Shown here: piece after piece, positions 5,331 to 57,110 of the stretch
Numbering within the stretch: the first letter of the stretch is position 1
Layout of the letters: each line of letters opens with the position of its first letter
Origin: Arcuatula senhousia
Taxonomy: Eukaryota; Mollusca; Bivalvia; Mytilida; Mytilidae
Direction of reading: 5' to 3'
Assembly: GCA_963971305.1 (NCBI GenBank)
Contig: OZ020317.1
Location: 10,062,001 to 10,126,000, forward strand
DNA length: 64,000 nucleotides
Program-made: the position numbers and the translations under genes
Notes under the pieces: generated by a model
The model's database searches: none
What the model was told of the DNA's origin: nothing
The model's input: the letters and a program-made list of their open reading frames with translations, nothing else

Positions 5331-8160
5331 CAAACCAGTTCAACCTACAACAAAGAACCAAAAGCAAGCAAGCAACGCCGCACTCAACCAGTTGACTCAA
5401 CACCACAGAACCAAAAATAAACAAGCAACGACACACCCAACCAGTTAACTTAACAACACAGAACCAAAAACAAAAACAAACAAGCAGCGACGCACTTAAC
5501 CAGTTCACTCAACAACACAGTACCAACAATAAACAACGACACACCCAACCAGTTCACTCAACAACACAGAACTAAAAACAAACAAGCAGCAAAGAAGACA
5601 ACTAGTTCACTGCTCAAAATGACAAAATGTTTAGAATTCAGATTTTCAAATAAGATATTAGGTGTGAAATAGTTTAATTTCCTAAGATTTCTTATATGAC
5701 AACTGTCTCTAGAACAATACATCGCAAATAAGAAAAGAAGCTTTCTGATTCAAATGATTTTAAATCATTCAATCAATCAAATCAAATCAATCAAATTTTT
5801 ATTGTAGACAAAATCCCTATGGGACATTACAAAACATGACAAAACATTACAGAGAGTACATACATGGCATAAGAATATGAACAATGTACATGTAACGAGT
5901 TATAAAATCAATTTATTTTTCTCCCTTCCTCAGTTCTAATGACTGCTTTATGAAAGAAATTAAGGATTTCATATCTTCAGGTGTTGATGGGTTAAGAATA
6001 TAAGACAGGTTTTCAAGTTGATTTAAATTGTCAAACAAGCACCAAACCAGTTCAACCAACACCACAGAACCAAAAATAAACAAGCAACGACACACCCAAC
6101 CAGTTAACTTAACAACACAGAACCAAAAACAAACAAGTAGCGACTCACTTAACCAGTTCACTCAACAACATAGAACCAACAATAAACAAACAACGACACA
6201 CCCAACCAGTTCACCAAACAACACAAAACTAACAATAAACAAACAAAGACACACCCAACCAGTTGACTCAACAATACAGATTCAAAAACAAACAAGCAAT
6301 GACGAACCAAACCAGTTCACCCAACAACACAGAACTAAAAACAAACAAGCAATGACACAACCAACCAGTTCACTCAACAACACAGAACCAAACACAAACA
6401 AGCAACGACACACCCAACCAGTTCACTCAACAATACAGATTCAAAAACAAACAAACAGTGACGAACCCAACCAGTTCACCCAACAACACAGAACTAAAAT
6501 CAAATAAGCAGCAACGAACACAACCAGTTCACTTAGCAACACAGATCAAAAACAAGCAAGCAACGACGCACCCAAGCAATTCACTTAACAACACAGAACC
6601 AAAAAAAAACAAGCAACGACGAAACCAACCAGTTCATTCAACAAAACGGAATCAAAACCAAATTAACGACGAAGCTAGTTCACTCAAACACACCTCCCCC
6701 CCAAAAAAAAAAAGAAGCAAAAAAAAAAAACAAGCAACGACCCACCCAACCATTTAACTCAACAATACAGATCCAAAAACAAACAAGCAGCGACGCACCC
6801 AACCAGCACAATCAACATCACAGAACCAAAACCAAACAAGCGACAACCCAACTAACCAGTTAACTCAACATCACAGAACCAAAAACAAACAAGCGGCGAC
6901 GCACCGAACCCATTCAACCATCAACACAGAACAAAAAAACAAACAAGCGACATTGCACTCAATCAGCTCACTCAACAACACAGAACCAAAAACAAACAAG
7001 CAACGACGCAACCAACCAGCTCATTCAACAAAACAGAATCAAAACCAAATTTGCGACGAAGCTAGTTCACTCAAACACAAAATCAAAATACAAACAAGCA
7101 GCGACCCACCCAACCAGTTAACTCAACTCCACAGAACCATAAACAAACAAGCAACGACACACCGAACCAGTTCACTCAACATCACAGAACCAAAAATAAA
7201 CAAGCAATGACACACCCAACCACTTCAATTTACAACACAGAACCAAAAAAAAAAACAAGCAGCGACGCACTTAACCAGATCACTCAACAACACAGAACCA
7301 AAAACAAACAAGCAACGACGCAACCAACCAGCTCATTCAACAAAACAGAATCAAAACCAAATTTGCGACGAAGCTAGTTCACTCAAACACAAAATCAAAA
7401 TACAAACAAGCAGCGACCCACCCAACCAGTTAACTCAGCTCCACAGAACCATAAACAAACAAGCAACGACACACCGAACCAGTTCACTCAACATCACAGA
7501 ACCAAAAATAAACAAGCAACGAAACACCCAACCAGTTAACTTAATAACACAGACTGAAAACAAACAAGCAGCGACACACCAAGCAAGTTCACTTAACAAC
7601 ACAGAACAAAAGCAAAACAGCGACACACCCAACCAGTTCACTCTGGCAACAATGCAGAACCAAAAACAAACAAGCAACGACATATCCAACTATTTCACTC
7701 AACAGCACAGGACCAAAAACAAACAAGCAGCGACACACCCAACCAGTTCATTTAACAACACAGAACAAACAACAAGCAAGCAGCAATGAACACAACCACT
7801 TAACACAAACACAGACCTAAATACAAACAAGCAGCAACACACCTAACCAGTTTACTTTACAACGAAGAACCAAAATCAAACAAGCAGCGACGCACCCAAC
7901 CAGTTCATTAAACAACACAGAACCAAAAACAAACAAGCAGCTGCGCACTTAACCAGTTCACTGAACAACACAGGACCAAAAAACAAGCAAGCAGCTTCAC
8001 TTAATAACACAGAACCAAACAACAAACAAGCGATGACACACCCAACCAGTTTACTTAACAACACAGAACATCCCCCCAAAAAAATCAGGGACTCACCCAA
8101 CCAGTTGACTCAACAACGCAGGGCTAAAACTAACAAGCAGCGACGCACTGAACAAACAAG
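5330..8160 (+). repeat. Degenerate 52-bp minisatellite array
   Basis: Tandem units of about 52 bp with consensus blocks ccaaccagttcactcaac, aacacagaaccaaaaac and aaacaagcagcgacgcac. There are roughly 45-50 units, interrupted at 5612-6032 by a duplicated flank and a LINE tail. A higher-order period is visible: the variant with ttgcgacgaagctag recurs at 7051 and 7363, exactly 312 bp (6 x 52) apart, with near-identical neighbours. Gln/Thr/Asn-rich frames on the plus strand and hydrophobic Cys/Leu/Val frames on the minus strand follow from low stop density in the unit and are not evidence of genes. Confidence 0.9.
5765..6032 (-). mobile_element. LINE 3' end inserted in the minisatellite
   Basis: Read on the minus strand, 5923-6035 encodes a tail with NQLE, LNPSTPEDM and SFIKQSLELR. 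This parallels the C-terminus of the LINE at 37860-37970 (NQLE, LNPNMD, FIKQSFELR). A 3' UTR and a TTGA-rich tail follow (plus strand: attcaatcaatcaaatc at about 5766). It is a 5'-truncated copy of a related LINE that landed in the array. Confidence 0.7.
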
Positions 8161-15886: not shown

Positions 15887-18800
15887 TCATAGAGATTTCA
15901 CACCAAAATACTTTTTAAATAACTCAATAATTTCCTTATTACCTTGATCTTTTACTATTGACAGCGGAGACCGTCCATATTTATTACAGAGATTTACATC
16001 TGCTTTTTTTTCTAATAACATCGAGACTATTTCTACATTACCCTTTTTACATGCTATACACAGTGGAGACTGTCCATACTTATCACAGAGATTAACATCT
16101 GGGTCTTTTTCTAATAACTTTGAAACTGTTTCTACATTACCCTTTTTACATGCTATACACAGTGGCGATCGCCCATACTTATCACAGATATTAACATCTG
16201 GGTCTTTTTCTAATAACTTTGAAACTATTTCTACATTTCCATTTTTACATGCTATCCACAGTGGAAACCGTCCATACTTATCACAAAAATTTACATCTTG
16301 ATCTTTTTCTAATAACTTTGAGACTATTTCTACATTACCATTTTCACATGCTAAACACAGTGGCGACCGTCCATACTTATCACAGAGATTCACATCTGGG
16401 TCTTTTTCTAATAACTTTGAGACTATTTCTGCAAAACCTCTTGCACATGCTATCCACAGCGGAGACTCTCCATCTTTATTACAGTGATTCACATCTGGAT
16501 CTTTTTCTAATAACTTTGAAACTATTTCTACATTACCTTTATAACATGCTATCCACAGTGGAGACCCCTCATTTTTGTCACAGAGATTTACATCTATATC
16601 TTTTTTTCTAATAACTTTGAAACTATTTCTACATTACCTTTATTACATGCTATCCACAGTGGAGACTTTCCATTTTCATCACAGAGATTCACATCTGGAT
16701 TTTTCTCTAATAACTTTGAGACTATTTCTACATTACCTACAAGACATGCTATCCACAGTGGAGACTGTCCATTTTCATCACAGAGATTCACATCTGGATT
16801 TTTTTCTAATAACTTTGAGACTATTTCTACATTACCTACAAGACATGCTATCCACAGCGGAGACTCTCCATCTTTATTACAGTGATTCACATCTGGATCT
16901 TTTTCTAATAACTTTGAAACTATTTCTACATTACCTTTATAACATGCTATCCACAGTGGAGACCCCTCATTTTTGTCACAGAGATTTACATCTATATCTT
17001 TTTTTTCTAATAACTTTGAAACTATTTCTACATTACCTTTATTACACGCTATCCACAGTGGAGACTTTCCATTTTCATCACAGAGATTCACATCTGGATT
17101 TTTCTCTAATAACTTTGAGACTATTTCTACATTACCTACAAGACATGCTATCCACAGTGGAGACTGTCCATTTTCATCACAGAGATTCACATCTGGATTT
17201 TTCTCTAATAATTTAGAGACTATTTCTACATTATCTGTTTTATCTAAATCCCAGCAATAGAACTGATCTTCATAGAAGTTTAAATTTTCATCTCTACTAC
17301 ATGCTATCCACAGTGGAGAATATCCACTTTTATCACAGAGGTTTACATCTGGATCCTTTTCTAATAACTTTGAGACTATTTCTATATTTCCATTTTTACA
17401 TGCTATCCACAGTGGAGACTGTCCATATTCATCACAGAGATTCACATCTGGATTCTTCTCTAATAACTTTGAGACTATTTCTACATTACCTTTATTACAT
17501 GCTATCCACAGTGGAGACCGTCGATCATCATCACAGAGATTCACATCTGGGTCTTTTTCTAATAACTTTGACACTATTTCTAAATTACCTTTTTTACAGG
17601 CCACCCACAGTGTAGACTGTCCATTTTTATCACAGATTTTAACATCTGGGTCTTTTTCTAATAACTTTGAGACTATTTCTACATTTCCCTTTTTACATGC
17701 TATCCACAGTGGAGACTGTCCATCATCATCACAGAGGTTTATATCTGGATTTTTTTCTAATAACTTTGAGACTATTTCTACATTTCCATTTTTACATGCT
17801 ATCCACAGTGGAGACCGTCGATCATCATCACAGAGATTCACATCTGCATTTTTTTCCAATAAAGTACATAGAAAATCTAGGTTTTCATTAATAGACGCAA
17901 AATGAAGTAATGAATGTTTAAAAGAATCAGTCTGGTTAACATTTGACTCATTGTGACTTAGAAGCCATTCAAACATATCTAAAAAATTATTTAGTATAGA
18001 TTGGATTAATGCTGTTGAGCCATGCGTTCCATGTATATACATATTGTATTGCATATTATAAGAGGTATCTTTCGTTTCAATAAGATGATTGATATTGTAT
18101 TGGGTTTGTGATGTCAAATAACGTAGAAAGTGTCGTCTAAAGACCTGTTGTCTCATATTAATGTTATTGAAAACTTGGATGACTTTACCATTTGACCAGT
18201 CAGTCACCATTCTTTCAATGTATAAGTCTAAACATTTATCTGGTATATCAACAAGATATTCCATGTCACCAGACTTGTCAATTTCCTCTAAATTCCATCG
18301 GAATCTTTCGTGCAGAAGATCAATGTCTCCATGATCAATTATAAGACTGGTTTTCTCCTTACCAAAGTACCAAGCAAAGAAGTCAAACAGCTTATCATTA
18401 ATAGCTTTGTATTTTGTTTTTGACGATCTACCAACTTCTATCGCATCTGATAAAGCATTCCACATGTTTTTCTCTTGATCTGTCACTTTAATCACAAATG
18501 TGCCAACCAAAGTATTCAGTTCATCTTCGAGAGATTGCTTTGACAATCTTCTATTGAGTTTGAATGAGTCTGATATGTCATCTAGCAGTGCCCTCTGTTC
18601 TTTTGTGACCTTACCTTTGAACCAATCGGAATCTAAGTTGTTATTAAAGAGGACACAAAGCACTAAACTGCAAATCTTATACTTACTTGAATCTTCTTTC
18701 CTATTGGACAAGGTTTCTAATTCTTTAGATATCTTACCAAAGGGATTTCGAAGGAAATCTAATGCACTGGTTCCACTTTCGTTTGGATACAATGAACACA

Positions 18801-19406
18801 AAAGTGGTAAAAATGCACCAGCCGTACCTATTTCCTCTCTGATTACAATTGTGTCTATTTCCTCGCCAGTGTATTGCTTTATCATTGCAGCTTTTTCTGC
18901 TAATGATAGGCAGAAATTGTCTGAAACCAAATTACATTCACAAGACAAGAAATGGGATAAACATTTGAAATTGTCATCTCTATATACCTGAAGCCTACAT
19001 GACACAATAATTTTACAATTTTGATCTTTAACAATCTTATCAACTGTATCTTGAAAATGTAACCAGTTGTCAATTTTTTCTTGACTAGCTGTAAAATTTC
19101 CACAAATATCATCTACTATGAAAACGGCCTTTCTCCCAGTCTTATAGAAATCTCTAATGTCTTTTGGGGTGTTGATTATGATAATATCATACCCATCCTC
19201 TTTTAATACTAATGCTGTGTGCCGTGCTAAAAATGTCTTTCCACATCCAGCAGATCCTGTTATAGTAACACACGCATTACTGGCTACACGTTCAGATAAA
19301 TGTTTACTGGCTCGGGTTGGAACAAAGTCTTTGTCTTTCTTCTTCCATTTCTTCAGCTCATTAGTGTTTTGTTCTGCAAAAAAACTTATTAACTTTATTT
19401 CTTTCA
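15887..19406 (-). CDS. Exon 4: STAND P-loop NTPase with ankyrin repeats (frameshifted)
   Basis: The exon opens after a TTCTTTTAG acceptor. An apparent GTG start at 19407 is really the split Val codon shared with exon 3. Early residues include a KDKDFVPTRAS block typical of nSTAND3 proteins. Walker A is GSAGCGKT at exon residues 51-58 and Walker B is AVFIVDDICG at about 94-103. The winged/helical part runs to about residue 490, followed by about 20 ankyrin repeats of 33 residues (SPLWIACKNGNVEIVSKLLE type). Repeat 7 carries an 18-20 residue insertion. The frame breaks at about 16600-16611, where a T-run has 7 bases against 8 in the near-identical copy at about 17000, giving an early stop. The frame resumes to 15887. 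The cause could be a real pseudogenising slip or a consensus error. If the first frame were used alone, a shortened protein with about 12-13 repeats would result. Confidence 0.85.
16449..17245 (-). repeat. Tandem duplication of a four-ankyrin-repeat block (398/399 bp)
   Basis: The block starting 'gctatccacagcggagac' at 16449 recurs from 16847, a 398-bp offset, and is nearly identical over its length. It encodes four consecutive repeats (variants LVGN, LVGN, NKGN, YKGN). The only notable difference is 7 against 8 T in one run. This is a recent intragenic duplication, as expected from unequal exchange. Confidence 0.8.
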
Positions 19407-19674
19407 CTAAAAGAACGTTATGGTTGATCTTTACACTTCGGAAAAAATGACTGATATTTTACGCCTTCTTTCAGTCTATGTGGAGCCAAAACTACACCTT
19501 CAATTGCTTAAAAAGGCGTGACAGCGCCTAGATAAATTATTTTTGCATAAACTTTTATTTTTTTGTACGTGTACACTTAATCCGTTTTGCCGGGGCATTT
19601 TCTTTGCGTTTTTCAGTTCACCAAAATATAGCCCAATATCAACAATGCCCTGTCATTTAGCCTCCACGTGCTAT
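19407..19674. other. Start of intron 3 side next to exon 4
   Basis: Acceptor AG lies at 19408-19407 (minus strand), preceded by a T-rich tract. Nothing else is recognised. Confidence 0.5.
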
Positions 19675-23105: not shown

Positions 23106-23330
23106 ATGAATATGTTGTATTCATTGACAATAAGTTCTTGGAATATAAATGGTTTGGGAGGCAAATGCAAAGATGATTTCTTCTTAACTAATATCAAAGA
23201 TGATATCAATATTCTATTAGAAACTTGGAAAGGCACTACTTCAGATGTTAATATTCTTAATTTCAAAATGATTCAAAAATGCCGAAACAAGACCCGTAGA
23301 TCAAAACGGTATAGTGGAGGCATAGTCATA
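23106..23330 (+). pseudogene. LINE endonuclease, N-terminal piece
   Basis: Begins LTISSWNINGLGGK, the first APE-type endonuclease strand (catalytic Asn in WNINGL), and continues to INILLETWK, where the conserved Glu of the LxETW/H motif is visible, then YSGGIVI. The frame is then cut by the hammerhead-bearing repeat. The middle of the domain, including the expected GDFN-type block, is missing here and was not found elsewhere in the window. Confidence 0.75.
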
Positions 23331-23357
23331 ACGCGGGTATAAACTGTTAATTTGGAT

Positions 23358-23403
23358 ATGCTATATAACAATATTTCAAGGAGTAACCTCTCATCAGTAG
23401 CAT
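23358..23403 (-). ncRNA. Type I hammerhead ribozyme
   Basis: Minus-strand RNA order: stem I strand AUGCUA, core CUGAUGA, stem II GAGG/CCUU with a UUACU loop, core GAAA, stem III of three pairs (the first A shared with GAAA; AUA/UAU with loop UUGU), cleavage triplet AUA, then UAGCAU closing stem I (6/6 pairs). A second helix beyond an internal loop (UUGAUUU with AAAUUAA) extends stem I, as expected for the tertiary contact of natural hammerheads. All core bases are present. Confidence 0.85.
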
Positions 23404-23729
23404 TTAAATCAAAACATTGGAAGGTCAAATTCCAAAACTGTTGAAAACGAAAAGTACTCACAACCAAAATGTTCGAACAAGGAAGCCAAACCAGCACCGA
23501 GGATATCGACCATGTACATTACAAGGAAAGAAACCTTGTGTTTTAAACAATTTTGAATTTAACAATCGGAAATTTTAGCGACAAAAAATATTAGAAATTT
23601 TATGGTAAATCGTGTCAGACAAGTCTGACGACTAGGCTTGTGATTACCCTCGGGGACCTTTGGTCCACCAGCAGCGGTTATCGCCCAGTGGTTTCAAAAT
23701 TACAAATACCAAAAACTGTTAATTTGGAT

Positions 23730-23750
23730 ATGCTATATATCGATATTTCA
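23730..23750 (-). ncRNA. Half hammerhead (3' part only)
   Basis: Holds the CUUGAAA..UAUA cleavage region and the UAGCAU strand of stem I, but the CUGAUGA half is replaced by LINE sequence. It cannot fold as a ribozyme alone. The same half recurs at 34417-34439 and 34607-34629. Confidence 0.75.
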
Positions 23751-23786
23751 AGAATTGGTAATCATTTAGATTTTATTGATAATGAG

Positions 23787-24893: not shown

Positions 24894-25451
24894 CTATGAT
24901 GATAACAGGTAGACCAACTCAGTGATAGGACGGGTGTAAGTACGGGATTGGATACGGACGGATACTTTTCTGATATGATTGTCCTCACTTGGGAAAACGT
25001 CCTCAACTTTAGCGGTTGCCCATTGATGTCGTGGCAAGTCCTTGTCCTTCATTAACACTATATCTCCAACCTTCAAGTTGTTTCTCTCATTGGTCCACTT
25101 AGATCTAGTTTGTAATGTTTGAAGATATTGTTTTTTCCATTGATTCCAAAAACGGTCTGCTAGGATTTGAACATATTTCCATTGGGATTTATACATATTA
25201 CGTATGTCAACATTTTCCAAATAATCCACGCTATCGATGCTCGATTTCTGAATTATCAAAGTTGACGGTGACAAAATAGATGGGGCTTCAGGATCGGTTG
25301 ATACTGCCACAATTGGTCTTCCATTGACAATGGCGCAAACTTCTGCCATTAGAGTACTTAAAATCTCATGAGTCAGTCTATTTTCATTCATTAACATTGC
25401 GTTTAGAATTCTGCGTGCAATTCCTATCATTCGTTCCCAACTACCTGCCAT
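24894..25451 (-). pseudogene. BEL/Pao integrase C-terminal part
   Basis: Continues the integrase in a new frame. GSWERMIGIARR holds the Glu of the catalytic D,D,E triad. A helical region with NGRPI follows, then a beta-rich C-terminal domain (VGDIVLMKD, HQWATAKVEDVFP, RIQSRTYTRPI) as in the DUF5641-type tail of BEL/Pao integrases. It ends at a natural stop. A frameshift at about 25440-25500 separates it from the rest of the integrase. Confidence 0.85.
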
Positions 25452-26610
25452 ATGTGACGAATGTGGTGAATTGAATTTCCAAGTAGTGCCATTTTTTTTA
25501 GTAAAAACTGGTTTATGGGATTGTCTTCTACATTGACAACGTTGAATTTCATTTCGTCTGCCGCACCAACAAAGTTAGTTCCTCTATCTGACCGAAATTC
25601 GGTCACTGGACCTCTTAATGCCACAAATCTCCTCAAAGCGTTGATAAACGACGAGGCAGACATTTCCTCTACTAGCTCGATATGAATTCCTCTAGAAGTG
25701 AGACAAGAAAACATAATTGCCCAACGCTTGGAGTTAGCAACCCCTCCTCTAGTGCGTTCTGTACTTATAGTCCAAGGACCAAAGGTATCAACACCTACGA
25801 AACTAAACGGTGGCGACGGTGTTACACGGTCAATTGGCAGATCTGACATCTGTTGGTATTCGGTTTTGCCTCTCAATCTTTTACATGTGATACAGTGATG
25901 TAACATTGATCCAATTAGCCTCTTTCCTCCAGTGATCCAGTATCCTGCGGATCGTATACCTCCCTCAGTAAAATGCCTTCCTCGGTGTTTTACATTCTCA
26001 TGAATGTGGCGTACGAGAAGTTTTGCAATGTGGTGAGTTCCCGGAATTGATATAGGGTGTTTCTCATTCATTGTTAAATCTGACCTTCTAATCCTTCCTC
26101 CAACTCTAAGTAATCCTTGATTGTCAATAAATGGATTCAATGATGCTATTTTGCTAGCTTTTTGGACTTGTTTACGAGTCTCCAAGCTTTCTATCTCAGA
26201 TGAAAATACTTCTTTTTGTACGTTCTGAATAATTACGATTTCAGATTCCTGGTATTCTTTCGCTGTTATTTTCGTGTATTCCTGTTTGATTTTCGATTCA
26301 CGCTTTGCTATCCAGCACTTTACGAAACGTTTCAATGTTGTTACTGCTCTTACGAGAGATTTCCATTCAGAAATGTTCTCAAATCGTGTACTAAAACTGG
26401 GTATTTCGATGTTTGTTTTTGCCACAACAACTTCAGGTCTCAATTCTTTATCTTTTTCCTGGTTTACTAATGGAAATGTATTAGTCGTTTCTGGTGCATG
26501 TAGCTGAGATGGTCCTTTGATCCAAATGCTGTTCATGATAGCTTCAGCTGTAACTCCTCTTGTTGCCACGTCTGCCGGATTCTTATCTGTTGACACAAAT
26601 CCCATTGTTT
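25427..26610 (-). pseudogene. BEL/Pao integrase, main part
   Basis: From VSTDKNPADVATRG, which marks the RNase H/IN linker of this group, to the zinc-binding region (HIHENVKHRG..HHCITCK, an H-H-C-C pattern) and the catalytic core with the first Asp in FVGVDTFGP and the second in FRSDRGTNFVGA. Codons upstream of about 26610 are out of frame with the RNase H domain, so a frameshift lies near 26590-26610. The third catalytic residue is in the next frame. Confidence 0.85.
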
Positions 26611-29600
26611 CGGTGTACTTAACTTTCTTATTCTTTGAACTCTGTTGGTAACATAGACATAGAAACGCCTGGTGGTATTGTGAATGTACCCAAGTACTAC
26701 TTTGCGATCTGTATAGCAATGGACATTTCTTATCTCCATGCCTAATTCATCGCAGATCGTTTCTGCCATCTCAGTTGCCATCACGGCCGCACATAGCTCC
26801 AATCTAGGGATGGTTGTACCATGTGTAGGTGCTACTTTGGCTTTACCCATAACAAATCCTATTTCTTGTGTATTATCTGTCGACGAAGTTAAGTATGCAA
26901 CGGCACCTATTGCTTTTTCAGACGCGTTAGAAAATACGTGGAGTTGCCGATTAGGTGCATGCGAAAATGATGTTGGTAGGTATGTCCTCGGAATTTGTAT
27001 GTTTTCCAATTTTTCCAATGAACGCCTCCACTGTTGCCATGTTTCTTGATGTTTGTCCGGGAGGGGCTCGTCCCAATCTTTCGTACATTTAATAATGTCT
27101 CTAAGAAACAGTTTCCCTTCTATCGTGACGGGTGCAACAAACCCTATCGGATCAAATAAGCTGTTTATTGTTGACAAAACACCTCTTCTCGTAAACGGCT
27201 TCATGTCTGTGTCAACTTGAAAAGTAAAGGTGTCATTTTGGAGGTTCCAAGCCATTCCTAGACTCCTTTGAAGCGGTATGTTGTCTTTAGATTCTGAAGA
27301 ATCAAGTTCTTTGAGATCCCTAGCAAGATCCTCGACGTCAAATGCATTTCGCACATCCTCTCTGTTTGACGCAATTTTGTGTAAACGCAGATTGCCTTCT
27401 GCCTTCAGTGCTTTCTGTGTGCGTTGCATCAAACTTATTGCCTGTTCACTTGTCGGAAGTGACGTGAGTCCATCGTCTACATAGAAATCTGTCCTAATGA
27501 ATTCTAGGACGTCTAACCCATAAGTTGGTGCACTATTCTCGGCGGCTTTCCTTAAACCATATGTTGCAACGGCAGGAGAAGGGCTGTTGCCAAAAACATG
27601 GACACACATTCTATATTCAATTAAATCCTGATTAAAGTCATTGTCTTTGTACCATAAAAAGCGCAAGAAATTGCGGTGATCCGGTCTTACTTTGAAACAG
27701 TAGAACATCTGTTGTATGTCGGCAGTGATTGCAACTGACTCCTTCCGGAATCGCAAAAGAACACCGACCAGGCTGTTAACCAAATCAGGTCCAGATAGTA
27801 GAACGCTGTTTAAAGATACATCATTGTGTTTTGCAGACGAATCAAACACAAACCTGATTTGATCTTTCTTTTTAGGATGGTACACTCCAAAGATTGGCAG
27901 ATACCAGCATTCATCCTCTGTGTTAAGTTGAGGTGCAATTTCGGCATGACCATTAGTGATGAGTTTTTCCATAAATTCAAAGAAGTGTTGTTTCTTCTGT
28001 GGGTCTTTTCTCAAACCAATTTCGAACGACTTCGCTCTTTTCAAGGCTTGGTGTCTATTGTTCGGCATCTTGTTTCTTGGTGTTTTGAATGGCAGTGGGG
28101 CTCCAAACCTTCCATCCGAATCTTTGTAGAATTCGGCATCCATGATTTCAAGAAATTCTCTGTCTTCTATTGAAAGGCCTATCTTGTTGTCATCTGATGT
28201 TATTTCAAACACTTTATCAGGTCTAAAAATGTCGTTTTCGACTACCTTATCCTTGATGGTCATGTTGTTTGTACGCGGCTTAAATATAGAGCTTCTTTTG
28301 TCCCACTGAAGGTATGTCTTGAAACAATTAACTTCATCTGGTTTGTGGACTTTTCCTAGGCAAGTCTCTCCAATCACCACCCAGCCCAGTGCTAATTTTT
28401 GTGCAAATGGTGTACTTCTTGGTCCGACGACCTGATCAAATATTTGGTGCGCCTCTCCCAAATCTCTGCCTATAAGCATAAGAATTTCTGCCCTATCATC
28501 GAGTGGAGGAATCAAATGTTGCAATTTACTTAGGTGCTCGTAACGCTGAGCTACCAATGGTGTGGGTATTTCCTCTCTTATGTTCGGAATTTGGTTGCAT
28601 TCTATCATCGTTGGCAGTTGAAATTTTGAACTCTCATCTAAAGACTGTATAGTGAAGCCATTCGCCTTTCTTCCTGTTACTACTTGATTGCCAGCGCATG
28701 AAGATAGTGAGTACTCTACTTCTTGACCTTTGATATTGAAAATTTCAAAGAACTTCGACTTAACTAGTGTTCTATTGCTTTGGTCATCAACCATTGCATA
28801 TATTCTGATGCTTTCTTCGGGGTGGTTGTTTGGGAAGACATTAACCAATATTGTCTTTGCACAGGATTTTCCACTAAAACCTTCGCCGCAAATTTGTGTA
28901 CATGATGTTGTTACCTGAGTTTTGTTTGGAGTTCCAGATTTTGGTGTTCCTGGATTTCGTTCCCCGCCATGAGATGGTAAGCTCTGTGGTTTTGTCTCAT
29001 GATTTGGCCGCTGATATGGGTTTACATTTCTTTCTATGTGAAGAGCCTTCGGATGTTGCTTCTTACATAACTCACACTTTATGTCTGCCTTACAGTCTCT
29101 TGCTAAATGTTGCCCACCGCAACATTTGAAACATATACCGTTCTGGCTTATGATGGATTTTCTTTCATCTATTGATAGCTTTCGAAATGTTCTGCATTCG
29201 TTAAGGGAATGAGCTGGCTGAACATGTACATGTAATGGACAAATCATACTAGGTGGTCCTACTTCCGTTTTACGAGCAGTGACAAAATTTGGGACTCTTG
29301 GTCTCATGAATGACTGGTTTCTTTGAGTGTTGCCATTATAGTCATAACTAAAACTCGGATCGTTCATCCGACTACTCATCTCATTGATAAATTTTGCGAA
29401 TTCTTTCATAGGTGGGTAGATACATCTATGGTCAAGTTTGTACTTTGACGCTCTTTCTGTCCATTTTCCCTGAATATGAGTCGGTAATTTACTAACTATT
29501 GGGTTTATGCCGGTTGATGAGTCGTAGTAGGAAAATATTATGCTGTACTTTGGATTCTCTTTTATTGCCAATATATCTGACAGTTCGTATAGTTTCTTGT

Positions 29601-29862
29601 AGTCTCCATTTGTAATTCTCGGGAATTTCATAATTTTCTCCTTGATAGTAGCTTCAAGAAGTTCTGGTGAACCATACCGTTCGTCCAGCCGTGACCATAC
29701 TCTTTCTAATCCGATTACAGGATTGTACACTGTTGCTGCTTGGATGTTAAGGGCATGCTTGCTTGATTCTGGTCCTAACCATCTCACCAATAGATCCAGT
29801 TCCTCTTGGGGAGTCACTTCTAGGTCTTTCATAATGTTTTCAAACTTTGTTTTCCAAATCAT
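26590..29862 (-). pseudogene. BEL/Pao gag-protease-RT-RNase H polyprotein
   Basis: The open frame of about 1109 codons holds, in order, the rest of gag (WKTKFENIMKDL, DUF1759-like), a zinc knuckle CFKCCGGQHLARDC at about 244 followed by CELC, a retropepsin-like domain with MVDDQSN at about 357, RT with VFDSSAK, HVFGNSPSPA and the FYVDDG catalytic box at about 794, and RNase H. In RNase H the first catalytic position reads FSNAS instead of the usual F-D-AS, while the later CYTDRK Asp is kept. The domain order and the YVDD box are typical of BEL/Pao. The frame is lost at the RNase H/integrase border. Confidence 0.9.
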
Positions 29863-29869
29863 GTAATGT

Positions 29870-30112
29870 TCAACTCTCTGAGAATGGTGTTAATCTCGAC
29901 ATCAAAATGTCCTTCTTTAGAAAGAGCTTGGCCATTTCATTTGCAACAGACGTAGACTCAGGGTTAGATGTGACATGATTACTATAAGGAGGTTCCCTTT
30001 CAACCTGATTAACTTCGTAAGTATTTTGTTGGTTATGTTCATTCTCTATTGTAGTTTTCCGAATTACATTACGTTGTTCCCGTTGCTCAGGCTTTTGGTA
30101 AACGGGTATCAC
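29870..30112 (-). pseudogene. BEL/Pao gag N-terminal piece
   Basis: An open frame with a Gln/Asn/Glu-rich region ending SVANEMAKLFLKKDIL and SRLTPF. The next gag motif (VEHYMIWKTKF) is continuous in sequence but one frame off, so a single-base shift lies at 29870-29880. The start codon at 30112 is plausible but unproven; upstream sequence is the short remaining leader. Confidence 0.7.
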
Positions 30113-35999: not shown

Positions 36000-37019
36000 A
36001 GGAAAAGTGCTGGTCCTGATAAAACTTCCAATGAAATTATTAAATAAAGTAGTATTGTTACTAGCAAATCTATTATTAAACTTTTTGATTTAATTTTGGA
36101 CTCGGGCAAATATCCATCTAGTTGGAGAAAGTCTTTTATAATATTTATACATAAATCAGGGGATAAAAATAATATTAATAATTACAGGGGTATTTCCCTA
36201 CAAAACTGCTTGGCAAAACTGTTTAGTGCGGTAATTAATGCTAGACAAGTTGATTTTTATGAAGAAAAATTTGAAAACCAACAATTTGGTTACAGAGTCA
36301 ATCACAGGAACACTGTTAGTATATTTATATTAAAATCTTTAATAACCAAGTATTTAACAAAAAAGAAGACTAAAAAATTTTCTTGTTTTGTTGATTTAAG
36401 ACGTGCCTTTGATACAGTGTGGCACGATGGACTCCTGTATAAATTGAGGGAAAACAATGTTGGCATTAAACTTTTTAGCATTATTAAAGATATGTATAAA
36501 TCATGTGAGTCTTCAATTAAATTTGAAAACGCCTTTTCAGACTATTTTCAAATCAAAAGAGGTGTTAAGCAAGGTAATAGCTTGAGTCCCACATTGTTTA
36601 ATTGTTTCATTAATGACTAGCATTCAGAATTTGATAACCATTGTGATCCTGTATGTTTAGATAGTACATATCATAGTACATTAAGCTTTACAGATGATCT
36701 TGTGATTTTATCAGAAACAGCCTCAGGATTACAGCAAGCACTTAATAAGTTGGAACTGCATTGTCATAAATGGCAATTAACAGTCAATACAAATAAAACT
36801 AAAATTATTGTTTTCCAAAAGAACTCAAAGGCAAATTTGGTCTCTAATAATTTTTGTTATAAAAATAATATATTAAATGAAGTGAAGGAATTTAACTTCT
36901 TGGGCATTATTATTTGTCATACAGGAAAATTAAGTCATCTCAGGAACTTTCTAAAAAAGGGATTAAAAGGCTATTCTCTATTAAAAAGTATATGTCAAAC
37001 TTCAAACATACACCAGTAG
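36000..37019 (+). pseudogene. LINE reverse transcriptase
   Basis: RT blocks in order: LDSGKYPSSW, FIHKSGDKNNINNYRGISL, QQFGYRVNH, FVDLRRAFDTVWHDGL, IKRGVKQGNSLSPTLFN, a TAG stop in FIND-stop-HSEF at 36618, then LSFTDDLVIL and WQLTVNTNKTKIIVF. The catalytic box usually reads F/Y-A-D-D; here Ala is Thr. The frame continues past the stop to 37019. Catalytic Asp residues are otherwise kept. The stop and nearby frame breaks show it is dead. Confidence 0.85.
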
Positions 37020-42572: not shown

Positions 42573-43345
42573 CTAAAACATCATGGTATATAAAACATAT
42601 TATGGTTTACAAATAAATATTTCAAGAGACTAGTGTAACTGTTACAACTGTTTTTATTCATTGAAAATCAACCGTTTTATACCCGTCTTTGGTAAATATA
42701 TAATTATATTTCAAACTTCTTGTAACAAGAATCTGGGAACTAAGCAGTTAACTTTCAGTATTTTTACCATTCAAATTAAAATGTTATCAGAAGCCACTTT
42801 ACATGTTTAGCTTTTTATTTAACACCAAATTTGAAATTCCCCTGGTTTTAAGGATTTTTTTTTCAGTTATTGTCAGAATTTAAGTTCAACATGTTATGTG
42901 CTCTGAAAAGCACAAAGTGAAGTGGTTGCTTTAGTTTTAGCAGCTTGTCAGAGTTTATGAAAGAGGGCGTGTGATTTCCAAAATGTCAATATTGTGACTA
43001 TAATATGAATTAACTAGGTAATTATATACAAAAAATAATATACAAATTCTCATTTTGAAGAGAGCGCCCCGTCTGAATCCGCCACTGTTTAATGAAAATG
43101 GATTGAATATTACACATTAAAATTTTAAATAGCATCAATGACTCGCTGATCCAACCGGCCATGTGTAAATTGTAATTTACATTTCCAAACATCGACAGTT
43201 TCGTTTTTGTGTGCAGTCGATGTACACAATAAATCAAAGATATGACATCTCACATGTATCAACAGTTTATTTTTATTCAATCGTTTTTTATGAATGAATC
43301 ATTTTATGGTACCCTTTGGACTTTTTTTGCGTGATTTTAAGTTAC
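42573..43345. other. Intron 1, no feature recognised
   Basis: Donor GTAACT at 43345-43340 and acceptor at 42574-42573 on the minus strand. The rest is AT-rich and non-coding. Confidence 0.5.
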
Positions 43346-44266
43346 CTGATACAATTCACTCAATAACTCCTTGTATTTCTCCACAAGTTTGTGATCTAAA
43401 CTTTCTATCAGTGTGACGTTGACAGCTGCCCTTACTTCTTGTCCTTTTCCACACAGCTTGCCAATATGATAGATAATTCCAGTTATCTCATTTTTCTTTG
43501 TTTCAAAGTCAGAATCTGTCATTCTTGCATTTTCTGAATGAGCATATTTAAAGTTACGGATGTTAATGAGTTTTTCAATTAATTTTATTAAAGTACAACA
43601 GTTATCTAGTATTGTTTTTTGTAGTCTAGGGCTTAGACTTGATACTGTCACGGTTTGCTGGGCTTCATAATCACATAGACTGTTACACGGAAAAGCATTT
43701 GCTTGGGTCTTCATACAACATGGTGGTTGTGGTAATGGCATATGGAACATAGATTGCCATTCATTTTGGTCGACCATTGAAAATTTCAGAGTCGAATTAA
43801 ACACCATTGGACAATGGCAGCATCTATTGTTGTACTTCCAAAGGTGATAAATCGTATGCTTCTCTGAATGCAAAAAATCGTCTAAGGCTTTTCTATGGTA
43901 TTGTAAATTATAATCCCAAAACACATCAAAACAGAAATTAACCAGCAAGCATCTAGCAAGAGTAATGTCTAAAACTTCTAATGCAATGCCAGATTTGGCA
44001 GTCCTTCGTGTAATGTCAAACAGTAATTCAATTTGGGATTTAAAACAAACTTGAGAAAATCTTTGTCGTGTTCCACATTGACATATCTTTTCTTTACACA
44101 TGTGAAATAAATCGTGCTGGTTGTTATTGAGGAACTGCTCAAACGTAACTCTTTTAAGTTGCAGATCACGTTCAATCAATGATGTTAAGGCTTCTTTACC
44201 ATGATCCACCACAAGAATAGCATGTCTAAGAAAGTTCTCCTTTTGTTTAGTTTGAAGGTCAGACAT
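43346..44266 (-). CDS. Exon 1: DZIP3-like HEPN domain
   Basis: Starts at ATG 44266 (MSDLQTKQKENFLRHAI) and has 307 codons to a CAG|GTAACT donor at 43346. A Cys-rich middle (CCHCP, PPCC) leads to INIRNFKYAHSENARM, the R-x5-H type motif of HEPN domains, often linked to RNA binding or cleavage, then DSDFETKKNEI. This is the N-terminal domain of DZIP3-like STAND proteins that are abundant in bivalves. It is the plausible translation start; a 5' UTR acceptor (ATATTGCAG) lies at 44326. The run-on stop codon beyond the donor is intronic. Confidence 0.85.
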
Positions 44267-44325
44267 ATTGATTTAGCTACATGTAGTTACATGCAGTTAT
44301 CTTATTTTTTGGCTTTGACGTGAAC
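44267..44325 (-). other. Probable 5' UTR end of the HEPN-STAND gene
   Basis: About 59 bases lie between the ATG and a splice acceptor ATATTGCAG (44334-44326), so an upstream non-coding exon is likely. That exon was not located. Confidence 0.5.
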
Positions 44326-45779: not shown

Positions 45780-47122
45780 CTAAAAGTATGTCTCGCCTGC
45801 CGGCACCATCGCTAAAATCAACTACCTAAGCTTTCATTTCTTGATATAAACACAAAAAGTGTCAGTATACCTAATAACAGATGCCTAGTTATTATACTAT
45901 TCAAGCAATCCATTGTCCACACAAGTATTACAAAAAGTTTTCTGTCTGAAAAAAAGACCTAAGTTCACAGAGTCACTGGAGTGTAAAAATGGGGTCATGG
46001 TCACATGGCATGGTGACAGTTGCGTTGTCCATAACTGCAACTGTCTGTTTACCCAATATCAGATGCCTAGCTATTATAACTTTCCAGCAATTCATCGTCC
46101 ATAAAAGTCTTACAAAAAAGTTTTTCGGCCTGAAAAAGACCTAAGTTCACAGATTCACGGGAGCGTGAAAATGAGGTCAGGGTCACACGACATGGTGACA
46201 GTTGCATAGACCATAACCTGAACTGTCCGTATACTTAATATCAGATGCCTAGCTATTAGACTTTTCAAGCAATTCATCGTCCACAAAAGTCTTACAAAAA
46301 AGTTTACAGCCTGAAAAAAGACCTAAGTTCACAGAGTCACTGGAGCGTGAAAATGAGGTCAGGGTCACACGGCATGGTGACAGTTGCGTAGACCATAACC
46401 TGAACTGTCTGTATACCAAATATCAGATGCCTAGCTATTAGACTTTTCAAGCAATTCATCGTCCACAAAAGTCTTACAAAAAAGTTTACAGCCTGAAAAA
46501 AGACCTAAGTTCACAGAGTCACTGGAGCGTGAAAATGAGGTCAGGGTCACACGGCATGGTGACAGTTGCGTAGACCATAACCTGAACTGTCTGTATACCA
46601 AATATCAGATGCCTAGCTATTAGACTTTTCAAGCAATTCATCGTCCACAAAAGTCTTACAAAAAAGTTTACGGCCTGAAAAAAGACCTAAGTTCACAGAG
46701 TCACTGGAGCATGAAAATGGGGTCAGGGTCACACGGCATGGTGACAGTTGCGTAGACCATAACCTGAACTGTCTGTATACCAAATATCAGATGCCTAGCT
46801 ATTATACTTTTCAAGCAATTCATCGTCCACAAAAGTCTTACAAAAAAGTTTACGGCCTGAAAAAAGACCTAAGTTCACAGAGTCACTGGAGCGTAAAAAT
46901 GGGGTCAGGGTCAAACGGCATGGTGACAGTTGCATAGACCATAACCTGAACTATCTATATACCAAATATCAGATGCCTAGCTATTATACTTTTCAAGCAA
47001 TTCATTGTCCACAAAAGTCTTACAAAAAAGTTTACGCCGCCGCCGTCGCCGCCGCCGCCGCCGTCGCCGGAAAGTAATACCTATGTCTCGCCTTCCGCGA
47101 CTATTCGTCGCAGGCGAGACAA
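45780..47122 (+). mobile_element. Family A element with six 182-bp units and a GCC run
   Basis: Begins 'aagtatgtctcgcctgccg'. Units of exactly 182 bp start with caattcatcgtccac-type sequence at 45906, 46088, 46270, 46452, 46634, 46816 and 46998; blocks include aagacctaagttcacagagt and gcatggtgacagttgcg. It ends with a GCC/GTC trinucleotide run (47035-47070), 'ggaaagtaatacctatg' and a compound hairpin gtctcgcc..gcgac..gtcgc..ggcgagac. Non-coding. The inner units (46270-46998) are near-identical, the outer ones more diverged. Confidence 0.85.
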
Positions 47123-49206
47123 AAACAGACTTCAATTGGCAAGATTGACTCACTGTCATATAAACAGGCAAGGCAATGTAACTTGTAATATATTCGGCTT
47201 CATGGTTTTCGAATGGTCGAGTTGGAGGATCCATAGCACAACTTGGTGCAACCCCTTGTTACACAATACAATCATGTCAAAGCCAGATAGCTATATAGGC
47301 AAGACAAATAGCAACAATTCTAACAGTATGTTTTGTCCTCTGCCGCAACACGGAGCGGGCACATAAAAATGCTGGGCGTCCGTCCGTCCGTGCATGCGTG
47401 CGTCCGTCCGTCAAACTTTTTTCGTAACATTTTTCTTAGCAACTATTAATCATAGGCTTTTGATACTTTGATTCATTAACACAGAATAACGGTACAGTCA
47501 ATATTTTTAAGATTGCTGAATTTTATAAGGTAATAATCTATTAAATTACTATTTTTAAAATGATACTGGCTTAAGGTTTTCTTAAAAAAAATTATACTAG
47601 CCTTTTTTTCTAACCCGTATAATTTTTTTTTATGTAATATGTGTACTGTGGTTCCACTGTTTTTCAAGTAATTATGTTTTATTTGTAATTTTTCTTTATG
47701 CTGATTTTCTTTTAAATATTAACTAAATATGTAAAAGACAAATATTCAATGATTCAAATTTTTACAACAAGCAGTATTAAAAGGGTAAAATTCACAAAAA
47801 TAAAATGTTCAAAGAGCCCTTATTCAAGTAGCCCAGACAACATGAAATATCAGTACAGAAAAAACGCGAAATATCATTGAAATTATTTCATAGTGCTTTA
47901 TTAAATTTCATTTATGACATAAAAAAAGCTTTAATTCAACTTTTTCTTAATCGTCTATTGATATCTTCGAAATTGTTTTATCATTGTTCTCATTACTGTC
48001 GTTTTCTAAAGATTGTAAGATAATACGTTATTTATTGTTTTACGTCATTACACAAACAATTAATTGAAATAAAGTCGGTCACACGCTAAAGAAGTTTAAA
48101 CAAAAATCCTAAAATAACCTTTTCTGTGTCAATTAACATTCAACTTGAATAAGTCTGTCAAGTGAAAATCTTCTTTTTAAAACAAAGCAAAAGAAAAATA
48201 AATTCGCACGATACAAATAAAGTTACATATGCACACAGGACAGTATTGTCGCAAACAAATGAAATAACTATGAAGAAAACAACAGACATTAGACATAACC
48301 TGTATTCTAAGTTAGCTCGCAAAATATACATTTGAATGCCTTAGACACTAAATTATGAACTTGAAGATTGCTTTACACAGACCGATGACCGGTTTCAAGC
48401 TTAAAGCCAAGAGCGACCTTAAGTTATACAGCTATCTTAAGTTAACAACATAAAATTATATGATCAGACATAACCCATGAACTCGCACAGAATACATTTG
48501 AATGCCTTGGTCACTTCAATATGAATTTGAAAGAAGCAAAGATGCACCACTGGGGCATTCAAGTGTCAAAAGTCTGAAAGGGCTACGACAAATCATTGAA
48601 GAATGCTTTATGCTGACCGAGGACTGGTTTCAAGTTCAGTATGTCTGAAAACAAAAATGGTACACGGTTTTATCTTTTTGACTATTTTACCTAAGTGCAA
48701 CCTAAAGTAAACATTAGCCTAAGAGCTACTTCTAATGAACTTCAGTCTACAGCGACATCCAGTTAACTTAAGTCTTTAGCAACCTAAAGTTAACTTATGT
48801 CTACAACGACCTCTTAATAAGTTAAGTCTAGGTCGACTTCCAGTTTACTTAAGTCTATAACGACCTATAGTTAACCTTTTCTTGATCGACTCATAGTTTG
48901 ACTTAATGGCTATGTTTTGCTTTGTTGAACTCTTGAATATTTTTTGGTGAAATAATATATCTACGCTATCAATTCCTTTTTTATTTCGTAAATTTAATCA
49001 AACATGTAAAAACTTACCTATGATAGGAAACACTAGTACAAAACATAAACAAACACTTATACCGTTGAACTGAACGGCAATAACATTGATACAGAAACAA
49101 TTTTCTTATATCATTTTTTCCTACATGATGAATCCATAACAAACAAAAAAACAATTTACTTTTCCTCTATGTTGTTTGGATCTATTTCACTTAATACATA
49201 CAATTA
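47123..49206. other. Non-coding with small repeats
   Basis: 47330-47450 (gggcgtccgtccgtccg, cgtccgtccgtcaaac) is the start of another tandem-core repeat. 48690-48900 holds four or five degenerate copies of a segment of about 36 bp (agttaacttaagtc, cgacct). No gene is seen. Confidence 0.45.
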
Positions 49207-49250
49207 AAATTACAAATACCAAAACGCGGGTATAAACGTTTAATTTGGAT

Positions 49251-49296
49251 ATGCTATATATCGATATTTCAAGGAGTAACCTCTCATCAGTAGCAT
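49251..49296 (-). ncRNA. Type I hammerhead ribozyme
   Basis: Stem I AUGCUA/UAGCAU (6/6), core CUGAUGA, stem II GAGG/CCUU with UUACU loop, core GAAA, stem III AUA/UAU with UCGA loop, cleavage triplet AUA. The outer helix UUGAUUU/AAAUUAA (one G-U) extends stem I past an internal loop. All catalytic core bases are intact. Confidence 0.88.
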
Positions 49297-49611
49297 TTAA
49301 ATCAAAACATTTGAAGGTGAAACTCCAAAACTGTTGAAAACGAAAAGTACTCAAAACCAAAACGTTGGAACAAGGAAGCCAAATCCAGCATCGAGGATAT
49401 CGATCATTTGCATTACAATGAAAGAAACCTGGAAAAATCGGAAATTTTAGCGACAAAAGTATTAGAAATTTTATGGTTAATCGTGTCAGACTAGTCTGAC
49501 GACTAGGCTTGTGATTACCCTCGGGGACCTTTGGTCCACCAGCAGCGGTTATCGCCCAGTGGTTTCAAAATTACACATACCAAAACGCGGATATAAACGG
49601 CTAATTTCGCT

Positions 49612-49657
49612 ATGCTAAATATCGATATTTCAAGGAGTTACCTCTCATCAGTAGCAT
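49612..49657 (-). ncRNA. Type I hammerhead ribozyme
   Basis: Same fold as the copy 361 bp upstream with compatible changes: stem II loop UAACU, cleavage triplet AUU (still NUH), and changes outside the core. Stem I AUGCUA/UAGCAU, CUGAUGA and GAAA are intact. Variation in the loops while the paired and core positions stay fixed fits selection on the fold. Confidence 0.87.
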
Positions 49658-49932
49658 TCAAATCAAAACATTGGAAGGTCAAATTCCAAAACAGTTGAAA
49701 ACGAAAAATTGAAGTAAAATAGTAAAATGACAGTTCTTTAAAACAAAAGAAAATGGTATGACCAATCTGTTGCAACAGTTGAAAGTCAAAATATCAATTT
49801 CTGCTATAAATGATCATTTGATTAAGAAAAAAGCATTCAAAAATTGGGGCAATTTTTATTTTATTGAAGCTCTATTAAATGTTTGGAATTTTTCAATTTT
49901 AAGACGCTATTGTGTTTATTATTTTATACTTT

Positions 49933-55539: not shown

Positions 55540-57110
55540 GTCATGTCATTCCAGAAGATCTTAGGACAATTGAAAATGATTTATTACGTAATGTGGTTTC
55601 CAATGGACCTACATTCAGAGAAGCACAACGTATAAATTGGAATCACAACTTTAAGATCATCATGGACGCTGTGGAGGACTATGCTAGAGCCTGGATAAAG
55701 AGGGAAAAGGACCAAGAACCAATCACTGTCGGACTGAGTAAGGACTATCCGATCTCTTGTACGAAGCCAAATAGACAAACTTCGCAACTGTGTGAACCCC
55801 CGGCCTTCTTCTGTATTTAAAGATCGCGAAGGTCTCAATTGTCTCTCTTCCTTACATAAAAGGTATGTTGTCACGCCAGCAGACAAGGCTTCCAATAATA
55901 TAGTTTTTGTATGTAAAGCACATTATTACAATTGTCTAATAAATGAACTAGGCATTGATGGTAATACTTCTGCTAGTGCTACATACAAACGGACTACATT
56001 TAACAAAGATGAAATTATAGCCAACTATAGCTCTTTTGTGTCCTCTTTCAATATTCAAATGAAAAAAGGAACATAAAGAGTTAACATATTTGTACTGGAT
56101 AACTAAACTTCACAAAAATCCGTACAAAGAAAGGTATATAATAGCTGAATCTTCATCATGTTCAATTACAGAGCTGTCCGTTCATTTAACTAAAATCTTG
56201 TCTGATGTCAAAGAAGGTCAACAAGCATACTGCAACATAATTTATAATCGTAGTGGAATCAACCATATGTGGATTTTGAAGAACTCAAAAGATTTGTTAG
56301 ATCATCTTAAATCTAGATCATTTTCTGAAGTTCATTCTTTGAAAACGTTCATTTTTTTAACTTTATACACTACCTTGTCACACGAAAAACTAAAATGTCG
56401 CCTGAAGAAACTTCTCGAAAAAGCCTTTTCAAACTGTAGGAATTTTGTTGTTTTGGGTTATAACTCTACATTCTTTTCCTAAACATCTCTCAAAGATAAA
56501 ATTTGTTAAACACTTTTTGGAACAAGTTTGTAGTATGCTTAATTTCCTCATTGACAACATGTTTGTCACCTTCGGAGGAGAGATTTTTCAACAACAAATC
56601 GGCATTCCAATGGGCACACACCGTGCTTCTCTCCTCGCCGATTTGTTTTTATACTCTTACGAGACTGAATATCTTCAGGGACTCGTAAAGAACAAAAGGA
56701 TGAAAGAGGCAAGGTCATTTAATCTTACATTCAGATATATTGATGATGTCCTTTCTGTCAATAACACTTCATTTGGTAGATGGATTCCTTCAATATATCC
56801 TCCAGGAGGCCACAGAATCAAATAGCTTTACGTCTTTCTTGGATTTGCACCTCGAATTTGACCCAGGTGGTCATCTCAGAACACAAATTTACAATAAAAG
56901 AGACGATTTTAATTTTCAAATCATTAATTTTCCTAATCCACAGAACAATATACCTACTTCTCCTGCGTACGGTGTTTATATTTCACTACTTATTCGATAT
57001 GCAAGAGCTTGCTCACATTTCACAGATTTTTTTTTATCAGAAACCGATTTCTTCGTGACCGACTTTTGGAGCAGGGCTATAAGAAAATACGTCTCATACG
57101 ATCCCTAAAA
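55540..57110 (+). pseudogene. Penelope-like retroelement RT (degenerate)
   Basis: Frames switch several times but the order holds: 55792-56076 (VVTPADKASNNIVFVCK), 56085-56482 (YWITKLHKNPYKERYII, MWILKNSKDLLDHL, TLYTTLSHEKL), 56445-56825 (IDNMFVTFGGEIFQQQIGIP, MGTHRASLLADLFLYSYE, FRYIDDVLSVN) and 56740-57108 (SFTSFLDLHLEF, KRDDFNFQIINFP, AYGVYISLLIRYARAC). The GIPMG and YIDD boxes and the shape of the domain fit Penelope-like RT, perhaps the Naiad type common in invertebrates. The subtype is inference. The GIY-YIG endonuclease was not found. At least four frame breaks. Confidence 0.75.

Follow-up and report, generated by a model that had tools for sequence, protein, structure and literature searches.

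The locus described here raises the question whether a short repeat with two hammerhead ribozyme motifs in the genome of Arcuatula senhousia is a retrozyme and, if so, where its copying begins and whose enzyme performs it. In Mytilus galloprovincialis, a non-LTR retrozyme with about 5000 ribozymes, repeats of 350-390 bp and circular RNAs has been described (Cervera and de la Pena 2020, PMC7229834). According to a 2020 review, no conserved motif of metazoan retrozymes reveals whose machinery moves them (PMC7761336). The window analysed here, i.e. the whole stretch of DNA under study, comprises 64,000 nt of contig OZ020317.1 (assembly GCA_963971305.1, positions 10,062,001 to 10,126,000), and its features are listed in Table 1.

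The window copy and its hammerhead motifs

The two motifs noted by the sequence-only reading, lying 361 nt apart on the minus strand, were confirmed in coordinates and strand, and the six-by-six stem I, the CUGAUGA and GAAA cores, the four-pair stem II and the NUH triplets (AUA and AUU) are all present. Likewise, the claim of a unit repeated about 1.4 times agrees with a direct repeat of 141 nt (49206-49346 and 49567-49707, 91 % identity, 361 nt spacing). Read in the RNA sense, the copy starts at reference phase 293, passes through the AUU ribozyme, the 361-nt unit and the AUA ribozyme, and ends at phase 51. The RNA of the 3' motif (49296-49251) reads AUGCUA-CUGAUGA-GAGG-UUACU-CCUU-GAA-AUA-UCGA-UAU-A/UAGCAU, and that of the 5' motif (49657-49612) matches it except for UAACU and AUU; in both, the closing pair of stem II is G.U, not G-C. 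The AUU triplet is private to the 5' copy, H17 being A in 61 of 62 aligned copies. Since the two ribozyme regions are hardly more alike (0.898) than their mean likeness to other arrays (0.884), this partial-dimer copy is an old one.

Table 1. Features of the 64-kb window, with the retrozyme copies first
Feature	Position	Strand	Basis or remark
Retrozyme copy, partial dimer, 1.39 units	49206..49707	-	Direct-repeat search and array mapping
RNA-sense ends of this copy	5' = 49707, 3' = 49206 (unit nt 51)	-	
Hammerhead motif, 5' copy, AUU triplet	49612..49657; predicted cut 49618/49617	-	Sequence, core-pattern match 49628-49651, H17 count
Hammerhead motif, 3' copy, AUA triplet	49251..49296; predicted cut 49257/49256	-	Sequence, core-pattern match 49267-49290
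361-nt unit, predicted release by double cleavage	49257..49617	-	Internal stretch missing; many units elsewhere 382-383 nt
51-nt tail beyond last predicted cut (fixed 3' end)	49206..49256	-	36/43 array rows end at unit nt 47-57
Further copy of this retrozyme family	~23327..23752 (upper boundary by eye)	-	Starts within ribozyme; ends at unit nt 37
53-bp tandem repeat	6040-7993		~37 copies
Long ankyrin-repeat frame with nSTAND3 NTPase domain	15887-19458	-	99-bp DNA repeat periods
Remains of BEL/Pao-type LTR retrotransposon	24894-29889	-	Peptidase_A17
Probable non-LTR retroelement fragment	36048-36620	+	RVT_1 match
311-aa frame	43337-44272	-	Weak HEPN_DZIP3 match; only five homologues, one 'hypothetical protein', others without name
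182-bp tandem repeat	45860-47036		6.5 copies, 93 % matches
Broken reverse transcriptase	55584-57108	+	No Pfam GIY-YIG in four pieces; one piece with weak RVT_1 (E 0.097) and telomerase reverse transcriptase as best PDB match (E 0.017)

The same reading had named an Rfam covariance score below the family cutoff at both copies as evidence against itself, and this is literally what was obtained, i.e. no hammerhead was recognised at the gathering score in the 64-kb window or in 11 family loci including the window's own, nor at E<=10 within 49100-49800. We do not regard this result as decisive, because the catalytic bases are present, because published mussel hammerheads are reported to lack most loop contacts and yet to cut, with a kobs of ~0.1/min (PMC7229834), and because Rfam at E<=1 was also silent on four loci of Penelope-like elements (PLEs) with hammerhead-like motifs, picked by core match and by eye. 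As these PLE motifs went equally unrecognised, silence on the retrozyme says little, but the hammerheads of those four loci are just as putative.

The hammerhead claim rests on the motif, the copy numbers and the anatomy of the arrays and not on comparative structure, given the negative Rfam result and the lack of covariation and of extra conservation. From 135 matches to the ribozyme region, 67 were kept (whole, distinct and at most four per locus) and 62 aligned; the core is intact in 47 of them, and U16.1 together with an allowed H17 is kept in 58. Beyond an internal loop, a possible outer stem I helix (UUGAUUU/AAAUUAA) pairs in 91.4 % of cells and would leave an internal loop AA/AUCC that could face loop 2, as a possible loop 1-loop 2 tertiary contact. 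No covariation was found in this helix and the stems, two of 20 pairs being changed on both sides, a value reached by 224 of 500 shuffles. The earlier claim that loops vary while paired and core bases stay constant was not borne out: over 31 non-redundant units, conservation was 0.941 in the 46 ribozyme columns versus 0.912 in the remaining ones, and the ribozyme ranked 100 among 343 sliding windows, so that the idea of a ribozyme standing out from the remaining unit by its conservation was rejected. The minimum-energy fold of the window motif differs from a hammerhead, the hammerhead folds of the two motifs having energies of -3.0 and -2.8 kcal/mol, and an unusually stable circle was likewise rejected, as circle folding was ordinary (z -1.1). 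A relaxed core pattern matched the window eight times versus 4.62 expected, which is not significant (eight or more in 9 of 100 shuffles).

Family size and the ends of the arrays

Across the 1803 contigs (1.04 Gb) of the host genome, the exact ribozyme pattern of 37-39 nt gave 5956 matches (3021 + 2935) and its reversed control none (0 and 0); a chance origin of the motif is therefore excluded. By hand count, the first 100 listed matches fall into 51 arrays with one to six exact ribozymes each, 22 of them with two to six. The description of the locus as retrozyme-like thus stands as regards a family dispersed over many contigs (by similarity and pattern searches), a unit of ~361-383 nt, arrays of ~0.9 to ~40 units, from partial dimers to long multimers, a GC content of 39 % (two units) and a type I-shaped hammerhead; it falls short in the covariance score and in the supposed constancy of the core relative to the loops. 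The copy at 23.3-23.75 kb, the possible outer helix of stem I and the fixed 3' end described below go beyond what the sequence-only reading had noted.

In 22 of 25 arrays, units are more alike within than between arrays (mean 0.937 versus 0.895), the other three being less alike inside than outside, and the nearest relative of a unit is a sibling from its own array in only 15 of 50 cases. Target-site duplications show a small excess only, with scores of 9 or more in 6 of 38 loci versus 0.9 expected, and at least two of these six (L048 and L049) match the element's own tail. Relatives in viral contigs numbered zero in a search from which records of this genome were possibly left out, and a second mussel hammerhead family was absent from the 64-kb window.

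The two ends of the arrays behave differently. Arrays were mapped against an actual unit of 382 nt taken from L004, with positions counted from the predicted cut, and rows of at least 150 nt were counted (n=43) after eleven loci overlapping longer ones or the window had been dropped. The 3' end falls at unit nt 47-57 in 36 of the 43 rows. The seven exceptions lie at nt 37 (the 23 kb copy of the window), at nt 43 (L050, whose flank continues with a duplicated tail), at nt 172 and 380 (L038) and 308 (L048) in arrays split by other sequence, and at nt 380 and 369 (L044 and L045) in rows cut by the stretch end. Judging by their flanks, L029, L030, L036 and L039 represent one duplicated insertion and L032 and L033 another; the independent count is therefore about 32 of 39.

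The 5' starts, on the other hand, spread over unit nt 1 to 361. Eight rows were called at nt 1, of which two (L044 and L045) are cut by the stretch end and at least three (L029, L030 and the 23 kb copy) have a further ribozyme piece upstream, and hence nt 1 is no true preferred start.

The loci counted are those most like the window copy and were found with a query that stopped at unit nt 17, so the cluster of 3' ends is not a product of the search. Arrays found by pattern instead of similarity end at nt 51 (L061/L062, one array) and nt 49 (L063), whereas the end of L064 was called at nt 23, its flank continuing with TAGTATTTGTAATG, which we read as the retrozyme tail after a deletion. The three pattern-found arrays agree with the fixed end, one of them on condition that a gap within it is accepted. 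No earlier description of a fixed 3' end past the cut was found in the literature searched, which covered titles and the beginnings of abstracts.

A proposed copying cycle with an internal start

A cut RNA terminates at the last nucleotide of the unit, and an RNA circle lacks ends altogether, so the end at about nt 51 must have another origin. We consider it very likely that the copy at 49206-49707 and its relatives are a metazoan non-LTR retrozyme, with an RNA-circle cycle in which reverse transcription starts internally. In such a cycle, a multimeric copy would be transcribed from the minus strand and every hammerhead of the transcript would self-cleave, perhaps in dimeric form by way of the palindrome AUAUCGAUAU that lies in the weak stem III. 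The monomer of 361-383 nt would then be ligated into a circle, on which the reverse transcriptase of a retroelement would start at a set internal position, ~51 nt beyond the cut, with nicked target DNA serving as primer, and would run more than once round the circle before stopping at random. Arrays made by an internal start on a circle would share their 3' end, vary in their 5' end and mostly hold more than a single unit. Self-cleavage and circularisation are assumed here by analogy with published work on another genome, and target priming of the retrozyme is a further presumed step. The 3' end, fixed at an internal position of the circle, marks where reverse transcription probably begins and offers a handle on whose machinery moves retrozymes; it also leads to the prediction that synthesis would not begin from the 3' end of a linear cut monomer. 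This reading could be checked in any retrozyme-bearing genome and in the in vitro PLE assay.

Among the alternatives, SINE-like spread, in which transcripts made by polymerase III would terminate in the T run of unit nt 48-51, to be copied by a LINE from that 3' end, survives best, and the coincidence of the end cluster with this TTTT speaks for it. We nevertheless think it unlikely, as the reference unit has seven other four-T runs, one of them just upstream at nt 33-36, multi-unit arrays would need read-through of all T runs, and no tRNA gene was found in L004 with ARAGORN, the only program used.

Somewhat less probable still is ordinary satellite DNA, i.e. tandem repeats propagated by unequal exchange, with the hammerhead as a passenger. 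Such an origin would suit one array of ~40 units or more (L044 and L045, C15:350000-366000, on the same contig as the window), as well as the ordinary conservation of the ribozyme; it fits poorly with a family dispersed over many contigs, with the one to six exact ribozymes in each of the 51 arrays counted above, and with one sharp and one scattered boundary, because unequal exchange alone makes no shared end.

That the unit merely represents part of the terminal repeat of a PLE, instead of being an element in its own right, would accord with the tandem PLEs of this genome and the hammerhead-like motifs near their frame starts, and is very improbable given that no likeness beyond chance to 17 PLE loci (a few families; best E 0.16) and no Pfam match in the frame across the window copy (49187-49564) were found.

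Penelope-like elements as possible partners and known systems

In vitro, the reverse transcription of a PLE is reported to have an internal start, a property that the authors regard as exclusive to PLEs (PMC11167929), and by subtraction from the figures of that study, the start would lie 85-92 nt past the hammerhead cut. The Arcuatula genome contains 140 GIY-YIG matches. Of the PLE frames, three were examined for both domains, and each of them (L057, L059 and L071, a member of the L068 family) joins reverse transcriptase and GIY-YIG in one open frame; L065 and L069 showed GIY-YIG alone. Motifs resembling hammerheads, selected by core match and visual inspection, lie near the start of PLE frames, and the PLEs lie in tandem. 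Strict hammerhead scans of ten PLE loci (L051-L060) found none, and a looser scan gave candidates in L052, L055, L056 and L057, the last of which was among the four loci submitted to Rfam.

These PLEs also end at fixed sites past the motif. When the best 40 candidates were scored for each family, L068 ended at ~+61 and ~+150 (16 short, 20 long and 5 through, n=41), L069 at +95 to +100 and +189 to +205 (7 short, 25 long, 8 through and 1 other, n=41) and L065 at ~+71 and ~+165 (17 short, 22 long, 2 through and 7 other, n=48), while a fourth family is represented by two copies that diverge at ~+70. The 3' ends of L065, L068 and L069 share a motif near TTTAGAC..TTTATAT. For L065, ends were forecast from the TAGAC motif before the search at 613 and 703 and found at ~607 and ~701. 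With a matrix of six PLE end sites, the ends of families left out of it had best ranks of 1-21 of ~620 within 5 nt. In local folds, the four mapped PLE junctions lie in a hairpin loop, as do two of four sites guessed from the motif. The PLEs often stand in divergent pairs, and among 23 pairs (minus then plus, at most 12 kb apart, both ends short or long), 21 have one end of each class. It is as if each of the two PLE start sites served one DNA strand, a difference not reported in what the in vitro study describes (PMC11167929).

The retrozyme (nt 47-57) and the PLEs (~+61 to +205) thus have in common that their copies end at fixed internal positions beyond the predicted cut, which points to PLE machinery for the retrozyme. 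The PLE end motif, by contrast, was not found at the retrozyme end, where the matrix from three PLE families gave a best rank of 44 of 382 at nt 46-56, with rank 15 at nt 45. The retrozyme shows one end class and the PLEs two, and none of 40 retrozyme loci has arrays on both strands, with one minus/plus neighbour pair, 2.1 kb apart, among the listed exact-pattern matches. A start-site hairpin was rejected for the retrozyme, since its junction does not form the expected UGGU/ACCA hairpin in a local fold.

Within the best explanation, a PLE enzyme is the most likely copier, with a chance that we put at or just under one half; an internal start in general is more likely than the use of a PLE, for which the odds are about even. 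The retrozyme may use another PLE family than those compared here, or another enzyme. Only tentatively, and with somewhat less confidence, do we extend this to animal retrozymes at large, which would then be copied by a Penelope-type mechanism on an RNA circle with a fixed start ~50 nt past the cut and a random stop, the circle giving rise to the tandem units and the start to the 3' end.

Among known systems, the LTR retrozymes of plants, as described, share with the element a non-autonomous nature and presumably a ribozyme-bounded circular RNA, and differ in their type III hammerhead, LTRs, primer-binding site and length of 600-800 nt (PMC7229834). The satellite retrozymes of newt and axolotl, likened here by description, resemble it in a short stem III with a palindromic loop suited to dimeric cleavage, theirs being amphibian repeats of 330-350 bp (PMC7229834). 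With the Poseidon PLE of Anolis, which has minimal hammerheads, it has in common a hammerhead, tandem partial copies and probably a fixed internal start of reverse transcription a few tens of nucleotides downstream (PMC11167929); unlike that element, the retrozyme has no known open reading frame, its end sequence is a different one, its ends form one class only, and none of the 40 loci shows a divergent pair. The retrozymes of M. galloprovincialis, again compared by description, match it in the type I-shaped hammerhead, repeats of 350-390 bp, thousands of copies, low GC content and tandem copies, whereas the sections consulted here make no mention of a fixed 3' end beyond the cut (PMC7229834). 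What seems new is the anatomy, i.e. the fixed 3' end past the cut, in an element that is a new copy of the published kind and perhaps a new family.
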